A stretch of 21,486 nt of DNA from a virus. The stretch is taken from the IMG/VR virus record IMGVR_UViG_3300037852_000521, positions 1 to 21,486 of that record; one strand, 5' to 3'. Within the stretch, counting starts at the first letter, position 1. Each line of letters opens with the position of its first letter. The notes beneath the pieces were generated by a model. It did not search any database and was not told the DNA's origin. It saw only the letters and a list, made by a program, of their open reading frames with translations. Shown piece by piece: positions 2,859-7,106 of this stretch. Made by a program: the position numbers and the translations under genes.

Positions 2859-3320
2859 ATGGCTACAGGTGATACCCCAATGATGGCCTCGTCGACCTAC
2901 AGTTCCAATGCCTACAATCTGGAATCAATGCAAGGCCGATCAGCCTTAGACGATGAATGGACCCAGCAACTGGCACGCAGAGCACTCTTTGATAAAGATC
3001 CAGTCTCGCAAGCGTATCAAAGACTACCTTTAGTACAAGGAAAACCAATGTCTATACGACGCGTAGTTCAAATCTTCATTGCTGACCCGAATGAAAATAT
3101 CCCACTTGAAGACTGCATGCTTCATGAAAGTGAAAGAAAGCTGACTGACGCTACTGATCAGGAACTGTTCTTTGAACTTGATATCAAAGGCATTCTTGAA
3201 AAGCACAATGCAAAGCGTACCAAGGTAATTGATAAAAAGGTCAAGGACCGGACAGAATACCTTGAGCCAGCTAAGGTTCGTGATTTGAAGATGGTCGTTG
3301 TTACAGTAGCGACTTTGTAA
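2859..3320 (+). CDS. Conserved-looking phage protein of unknown function
   Basis: A 153-residue soluble protein with no signal peptide or membrane segment. The N-terminal 25 residues are Ser/Met/Thr-rich and likely disordered. The middle carries a DEWTQQLARRALFDKDP segment, and the C-terminal half is a mixed charged region ending in a hydrophobic strand (RDLKMVVVTVATL). The start is well supported by AAAGGAGG four bases upstream. It stands as its own unit: a long structured leader precedes it and tRNA elements follow four bases after its stop. The strong ribosome site and individual leader suggest high or separately controlled expression. I do not recognise a catalytic motif, and no function is proposed. 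Confidence 0.75.
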   Translation: MATGDTPMMASSTYSSNAYNLESMQGRSALDDEWTQQLARRALFDKDPVSQAYQRLPLVQGKPMSIRRVVQIFIADPNENIPLEDCMLHESERKLTDATDQELFFELDIKGILEKHNAKRTKVIDKKVKDRTEYLEPAKVRDLKMVVVTVATL

Positions 3321-3324
3321 CTAA

Positions 3325-3398
3325 GGCGGGGTAGCTCAGGCTGGTAGAGCATTAGGTCCATAACCTAAGGGTCGTCGGTTCAAATCCGCCCCCCGCAA
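3325..3398 (+). tRNA. tRNA with anticodon CAU (Met; initiator-like 3' half)
   Basis: A full cloverleaf can be drawn: acceptor GGCGGGG/CCCCGCA, D-arm GCTC/GAGC, anticodon stem TTAGG/CCTAA with loop TCCATAA, and T-arm with loop TTCAAAT. The anticodon (3359-3361) is CAT. The 3' half (from the anticodon arm to the discriminator) closely follows bacterial tRNA-fMet, including GTCGTCGGTTCAAATCCG and CCCCCGCAA. Position 1 (G) opposes A72, so the end pair is unformed, as in bacterial initiators. The D-arm is elongator-like (C11-G24), loop position 33 is C instead of T, and the T-stem has one T-C mismatch. No CCA is encoded. It could be initiator, elongator Met or Ile2. Confidence 0.8.
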
Positions 3399-3403
3399 CA
3401 CTA

Positions 3404-3474
3404 GGGCGAGCCGGGTAGGGGCTAAGGGCTTCTAATCCCACAGCTGAGGGTTCAACTCCCTACTCGCGCCGCCA
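3404..3474 (+). tRNA. Degenerate tRNA-like element, probable tRNA-Arg(UCU) remnant
   Basis: The segment CTTCTAATCC is the usual anticodon loop and 3' stem of tRNA-Arg(UCU), with T33 at 3430 and TCT at 3431-3433. A canonical T-loop (GGG TTCAACT CCC) follows at 3448-3460, and a CCA is present at 3472-3474. The acceptor GCGAG pairs with CTCGC, but the 3' arm seems to carry two extra bases (CTCGCGCC rather than CTCGCC). The D region has only about ten bases and cannot form a normal D-arm, and the anticodon stem is weak. Either a decayed tRNA or a D-arm-reduced one. It lies five bases after the CAU tRNA. Confidence 0.4.
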
Positions 3475-7028: not shown

Positions 7029-7106
7029 CAGAGTGTAGCTCAGCCTGGACAGAGCACGTGCCTTGGGTGCACGGGGTCGGGAGTTCGAATCTCTCCACTC
7101 TGACCA
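7029..7106 (+). tRNA. tRNA-Pro (anticodon UGG)
   Basis: A complete cloverleaf: acceptor CAGAGTG pairs perfectly with CACTCTG; D-arm GCTC/GAGC; anticodon stem CGTGC/GCACG around CTTGGGT (anticodon TGG); T-arm GGGAG/CTCTC with loop TTCGAAT; discriminator A and encoded CCA at 7104-7106. The C1-G72 end pair is the known identity feature of bacterial tRNA-Pro, which supports function. It lies between the small gene and the polymerase gene, whose ribosome site begins a few bases after the CCA. Confidence 0.95.

Follow-up and report, generated by a model that had tools for sequence, protein, structure and literature searches.

A 21,486-base virus fragment from IMG/VR (the whole stretch that we analysed, hereafter the window) encodes a tRNA with a CAU anticodon at 3325-3398 on the plus strand. 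Bacterial CAU tRNAs are initiators (tRNA-fMet), Met elongators, or Ile2, and this one has an initiator-like body with an elongator-type D-stem. Is it an initiator, one of the two elongators, or a decaying copy? The gene itself is complete and real: ARAGORN calls a tRNA-Met(cat) at 3325-3399 (+), and 3325-3398 is matched by Rfam RF00005 with 51.8 bits (E = 1e-8), which is far above the threshold. Unaided folding did not recover the cloverleaf as the minimum-energy structure of this tRNA. Unmodified tRNAs commonly lack the cloverleaf as their minimum-energy fold, so we did not use the folding result.

In the acceptor stem, GGCGGGG (1-7; 3325-3331) faces CCCCGCA (66-72), which is followed by the discriminator A73 (3391-3398). 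G2-C71, C3-G70, and G4-C69 are paired, and G1.A72 is unpaired. After TA, the D-arm (3334-3350) consists of GCTC (10-13), the loop AGGCTGGTA, and GAGC (22-25). By the sequence and the position profile described below, its stem is of the elongator type (C11-G24/U12-A23), and its loop has the initiator form (GGTA, not GGTTA) and the initiator length. After an A, the anticodon arm (3352-3368) has the loop TCCATAA, with U32 and C33, between TTAGG (27-31) and CCTAA (39-43); this gives the pairs A29-U41, G30-C40, and G31-C39. After GGGTC, the T-arm (3374-3390) has GTCGG (49-53), an initiator-type loop TTCAAAT, and CCGCC (61-65), with a U50.C64 mismatch (3375 and 3389) that cmscan flags as a non-standard pair. 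The 50:64 pair is formed in all 80 canonical phage initiators that we sampled, versus this mismatch in the window tRNA. Overall, 19 of the 21 stem pairs are intact. The gene does not encode CCA (CAC directly follows A73). The unformed 1-72 pair, the elongator-like D-stem, and the C at position 33 were all read correctly in an earlier note on this DNA, which did not mention the initiator form of the D-loop, the second mismatch (in the T-stem), the missing CCA, or the degenerate tRNA-like stretch downstream that is described below.

As a yardstick, we used a published survey of 9,917 bacterial CAU tRNA genes, comprising 4,438 initiators, 2,762 Met elongators, and 2,717 Ile2 genes (PMC5143459). 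G.A at 1:72 is found in 7 of the initiators and in none of the Met elongators or Ile2 genes. AGG/CCU at 29-31/39-41 is present in 522/4,438 initiators, 1/2,762 Met elongators, and 1/2,717 Ile2 genes. C:G at 11:24 is found in just 3/4,438 initiators (4,430 have A11-U24) and in nearly all elongators. Against this survey, two of the diagnostic places in the window tRNA are of the initiator kind (1:72 and the anticodon stem) and one is of the elongator kind (11:24). By our own arithmetic on the published counts, the three features combined are nearly neutral, with odds of about 2:1 for the initiator; the great rarity of C11-G24 in initiators offsets the other two.

We also gathered reference initiator, elongator Met, and Ile2 genes from Pseudomonadota genomes, with the Met and Ile2 genes separated by acceptor and anticodon-arm features (our own assignment, not annotation). 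A position profile built from these genes assigned 79 of the 81 reference sequences correctly in leave-one-out tests, and it scored the window tRNA at -77.2 as an initiator, -91.6 as Met, and -111.4 as Ile2. By region, the D-stem favours the elongator by about 33 bits and the anticodon stem favours the initiator by 32 bits; the D-loop, the acceptor, and the T-stem also favour the initiator. Our own isotype covariance models gave 77.4 bits for the initiator, 73.1 bits for elongator Met, and 63.9 bits for Ile2. This is the scoring that the earlier note had proposed, and neither the elongator nor the Ile2 model scored better. The lead of the initiator over elongator Met is small in the covariance models (4.3 bits) and clearer in the profile.

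Of the marks of bacterial tRNA-fMet, the window tRNA has the CAU anticodon, the 1:72 mismatch, the AGG/CCU anticodon stem, the pairs G2-C71, C3-G70, and G4-C69, and A73. It has C11-G24 instead of a purine11:pyrimidine24 pair (A11-U24), and we therefore file it as a variant rather than a plain member of this class. Of the marks of elongator tRNA-Met, it has C11-G24 and lacks both a standard or wobble 1:72 pair and a best score with the elongator model. As a tRNA-Ile2 it scores lowest of the three. We dropped the formylase-type acceptor (GCGG/CCGC) as proof of initiator identity on its own, as the alphaproteobacterial type of elongator Met shares it, with G1.U72. Judged by its sequence, the only clearly elongator element of the window tRNA is the D-stem, and we see in it the body of an initiator whose D-stem has been swapped, which fits neither class cleanly.

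The anticodon stem might seem to weaken this reading. The earlier note had observed that only two of the three G-C pairs of the initiator stem are kept. The letters are right (A-U, G-C, G-C), but the A-U pair is not a lost initiator feature, and we rejected that interpretation after a class-level control. In the Alphaproteobacteria (the class of Fuscovulum blasticum), all 46 of 46 matching initiator stems were CAGG/CCTG (31 of 51 genomes had a match). The full stem of the window tRNA (TTAGG/CCTAA) is identical to that of the initiator of one genome (L349, genome G065). A-U is also the commonest form of 29-41 in 80 sampled ordinary phage initiators. A29-U41/G30-C40/G31-C39 is thus a normal initiator form in Alphaproteobacteria and not an elongator trait.

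C33 was seen in 4 of the 80 ordinary phage initiators, and we found no initiator-type tRNA with C33 in 299 Pseudomonadota genomes. Using the U32-C33-CAU-AA loop in a GG/CC-stem pattern, we parsed tRNAs from six of seven further contigs, and all of them (L417-L422) are initiator-type: they have A11-U24, and 1:72 is unpaired. Initiators are not the only ones with C33, since some phage CAU tRNAs whose ends are paired have it too. The turn in the anticodon loop is made at U33, and C33 should impair decoding in the A site.

We propose, with a probability of roughly 60%, that the window tRNA is a phage-encoded variant of the initiator type (tRNA-fMet class), with C11-G24/U12-A23 in place of A11-U24/G12-C23, plus C33. 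Most likely, to go by its sequence, it is a working phage initiator of this variant type. The earlier suggestion of a phage initiator-like tRNA is thus our leading reading, and the resemblance to initiators in the acceptor end and the 3' half, on which it was based, is supported, as are the elongator-type D-stem and the unusual C33. That note also raised the idea that such a tRNA could steer initiation on phage messages, and the tRNA sequence shows no feature of selectivity for phage mRNAs.

If so, the host's methionyl-tRNA synthetase would charge the tRNA via CAU and A73, and host enzymes would add the CCA tail. The host formyltransferase should accept it, given the open 1-72 position, G2-C71, C3-G70, G4-C69, and A73. 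The determinants for the formylase lie mainly in the acceptor end, with G2-C71, C3-G70, G4-C69, and A73 as minor ones (PMC9976931). In E. coli, a chimera with the initiator acceptor stem on another body was fully formylated, and A11-U24 counts as secondary among the determinants (PMC4611024). IF2 and the P site of the 30S subunit would accept the tRNA via its alphaproteobacterial-type anticodon stem with G30-C40 and G31-C39; in the P site, the pairs 30-40 and 29-41 contact A1339 and G1338 of the 16S rRNA (PMC11497404). The phage tRNA might then top up or replace the host initiator during infection. More speculatively, the altered loop and D-stem may spare it from a nuclease of the host that targets the host's own initiator.

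Some points count against an initiator: the covariance-model margin is just 4.3 bits, the T-stem has the U50.C64 mismatch, and the gene lacks CCA. Also, the GGCGGGG strand could derive from an elongator Met of the alphaproteobacterial type, whose G1.U72 is one base away from G1.A72. This leads to the strongest rival, in which the tRNA is an elongator tRNA-Met for internal AUG codons (GGCGGGG...CCCCGCU) whose end pair was weakened by a change of U72 to A. We rank it first among the rivals because that type of elongator Met shares the GGCGGGG strand and closes its acceptor end with nothing firmer than a G1.U72 wobble. The D-stem, A9, A26, the V-loop, and the 5' acceptor strand are all of the elongator-Met type, and the elongator model's 73.1 bits are near the initiator score. 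However, the survey has a single Met elongator with AGG/CCU and none with G.A at 1:72 (PMC5143459). Furthermore, 27-43 (U-A), 31-39 (G-C), and the D-loop are initiator-like. C33 also argues against a tRNA that has to decode in the A site. Overall, we consider a frayed elongator unlikely.

Less likely still is that the gene is a decaying, non-functional copy, as the earlier note had allowed. The U50.C64 mismatch, the lack of CCA, and the rare C33 are compatible with decay, and a degenerate tRNA lies directly downstream: at 3404-3470 (+), there is a tRNA-Arg(tct)-like stretch, followed by GCCA, which ARAGORN calls at half threshold and which scores 12 bits with elongator models. This stretch has no Rfam match and is below the normal thresholds, and it is probably a decayed second tRNA. 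But the CAU tRNA is identical in three contigs, including the window, although these phages are near-identical, and its 19 intact stem pairs and its Rfam score do not suggest decay either. A more diverged relative (L004) ends inside the tRNA after 36 nt, or half of it, and all 36 of these are identical, including G1, the D-stem, and C33. The upstream gene in L004 has 82% protein identity and 74% identity at fourfold third positions. Over its last ~110 nt, that gene is fairly well conserved too (about 88% identical, as judged by eye in the alignment), which puts the chance of 36/36 identity nearer to 1 in 100 than to 1 in 50,000. The comparison with L004 leans towards constraint rather than decay, but it covers half a tRNA beside a gene end that is itself rather well conserved. 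The odd features also recur in other phages, as described below.

The upstream gene (2859-3320, +; 153 amino acids) is an open reading frame that is preceded by a GGAGG site. It has a weak match to a PHROG of unknown function and has relatives in L002-L009. The tRNA begins 4 nt past its stop codon and is probably in its transcript. Genes for primase, sliding clamp, DNA polymerase I, and clamp loader are in the same region, and a normal-looking tRNA-Pro(tgg) with an encoded CCA (7029-7106, +) lies directly before the DNA polymerase I gene. At 45% G+C, the main open reading frames of the window have AUA for 22.5% of their Ile codons and AGA for 21% of their Arg codons. Codon supply could explain the tRNA-Pro and the former tRNA-Arg.

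Codon supply could also be invoked for the CAU tRNA if it were a tRNA-Ile2, with C34 modified to lysidine so that it reads AUA, a codon that the phage uses often. The AUA usage in the window fits this, and so does the tRNA-Pro(tgg), which likewise suits codon supply. We think that Ile2 is very unlikely: it is lowest by covariance model (63.9 bits) and by profile, the survey has G.A at 1:72 in no Ile2 gene and AGG/CCU in one of 2,717 (PMC5143459), and the acceptor has G4-C69/G5-C68, versus C4-G69/C5-G68 in most of the Ile2 genes that we collected.

Finally, it seems highly improbable that this is a Met tRNA kept mainly as a nuclease-resistant stand-in, with U32-C33 and a changed D-stem that shield it from an enzyme by which the host initiator is cut. 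In favour, it has been suggested that phage tRNAs change their anticodon loops to avoid host tRNases, and initiator tRNA is a substrate of some VapC toxins (PMC10264068); in addition, initiators with C33 turned up repeatedly in phages and in none of the 299 Pseudomonadota genomes. But we know of no nuclease here that needs U33 or A11-U24, and where VapC cuts tRNA-fMet, phages are reported as a rule not to carry this tRNA (PMC10264068).

Are there other tRNAs like the variant initiator that we propose? When we searched with a pattern that joins the elongator D-stem to the initiator 3' half, 17 viral contigs matched, compared with just two in the GTDB genome collection. On visual inspection, roughly half of the 17 viral matches are real hybrids, and the others are 3' halves without a D-arm. 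One of the GTDB matches (L046) has the same tRNA as L038, a contig that IMG/VR lists as viral, and the other is a 3' remnant of a tRNA-fMet. We rejected L032, L035, L036, L039, L040, L042, L045, L047, L021, and L022 as hybrids, as they have only tRNA-fMet 3' halves and no matching D-arm. Loose halves of this kind (L021, L022, L045, L047) were in viral contigs and a Rhodobacter contig; they are probably attachment-site remnants of elements that integrate in initiator genes.

Among the matches listed, 24 of 62 distinct viral CAU tRNAs with the GGTAGAGC elongator D-arm have an initiator-type 1:72, a fraction that is not an unbiased frequency, as the hybrid sets are derived from patterns and few bacterial elongators have the GGTAGAGC form. 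The acceptor mismatches in these tRNAs, again among the matches listed, are concentrated at 1:72 (15, with 6 spread across the remaining six pairs); random decay would not produce such a distribution. G2-C71/C3-G70/G4-C69 is present in 17/24 of those with an initiator-type 1:72 and in 2/38 of those with a paired 1:72 (p = 6e-8, among the matches listed). We also considered the 50.64 mismatch as a common antideterminant for EF-Tu and rejected this: the association is weak (6/24 versus 2/38, p = 0.047, among the matches listed), and one phage with a paired G1-C72 has the mismatch as well. Many metagenomes contain phage CAU tRNAs that closely resemble one another and have A1.A72, a GGA/TCC anticodon stem, and a U50.U64 mismatch (L064, L069, L074, L083, and others).

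The initiator 1:72, the initiator anticodon stem, and C11-G24 are combined in 12 distinct viral sequences, including that of the window tRNA. The mixture is also found in isolated phages: Rhizobium phages X66, V1VFA-S, and B1VFA; Bordetella phages PHB04 and PHB09; and Pseudomonas phage Nican01. Stenotrophomonas phage Philippe has the same mixture but with U11-A24. The Rhizobium and Bordetella phage tRNAs share the initiator-type 1-72 and C11-G24 with the window tRNA and differ from it in having U33 and GGA/TCC or GGG/CCC anticodon stems. None of 398 Pseudomonadota genomes matched the equivalent pattern that has CGCA at 69-72. A nucleotide search with the whole window found no match among named phages, and a literature search found no paper on this mixture. 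Several published records have CAU tRNAs that are not annotated: Pseudomonas PaMx74, Bordetella PHB09 and PHB04, roseophage DSS3P2, and Nocardia NTR1 (L404, L407, L408, L409, and L414).

Mixed tRNAs thus recur in unrelated phages and are almost absent from bacterial genomes. It is possible, and we suggest it tentatively, that a second kind of initiator, which bacterial genomes avoid, has been evolved or assembled by phages time and again; it would combine the acceptor and anticodon stems of an initiator with the D-stem of an elongator and, in some cases, C33. If this is true, then initiation in infected cells can do without the near-invariant A11-U24 pair, or the pair was changed under selection to escape host control of the initiator or attack on it. 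A set of phage tRNAs that drop A11-U24, and sometimes U33, but keep the other initiator marks would be a direct way to ask what that pair is for. Do phages alter their initiators to sustain translation when the host initiator is limited or attacked? Phage CAU tRNAs that are annotated just as tRNA-Met need to be sorted by 1-72, 11-24, and 29-31/39-41.

Among known tRNAs, the alphaproteobacterial tRNA-fMet shares with the window tRNA the open 1-72 with A72, G2-C71/C3-G70/G4-C69, A73, A29-U41/G30-C40/G31-C39, the form of the D-loop, and the T-loop TTCAAAT. It has A11-U24/G12-C23 and G at both 9 and 26, where the window tRNA has C11-G24/U12-A23, A9, and A26. It also has C1 and C32-U33, in contrast to G1, U32-C33, and the unpaired U50.C64, and proteobacterial initiator genes usually encode CCA, unlike the gene in the window. 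A11-U24 is among the strictest marks of bacterial initiators and is counted as a recognition element for the formylase. The bacterial elongator tRNA-Met of the form GGCGGGG...CCCCGCU shares the 5' acceptor strand, U8-A9, the D-stem, and A26; it has G1.U72, whereas the window tRNA has G1.A72, an initiator-like anticodon stem and 31-39 pair, and the initiator's D-loop length. Elongator tRNA-Met genes with G1.U72 and G2-C71/C3-G70/G4-C69, which are probably alphaproteobacterial, are seen in L305, L306, L311, and others, so the formylase must tell the initiator apart by little beyond 1:72 and the D-stem. The ordinary tRNA-fMet of Sinorhizobium phage phiLM21 and Caulobacter phage CcrColossus is likewise a phage-borne initiator, of a kind in which A-U or U-A at 29-41 is common, but unlike the window tRNA it keeps A11-U24. 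Eukaryotic initiators (tRNA-Met-i) also carry C33 in place of U33 (PMC9023262) and also lack R11:Y24 (PMC9976931), but they are not formylated, have a paired 1-72, and are unrelated in sequence, so the likeness is at most convergence.
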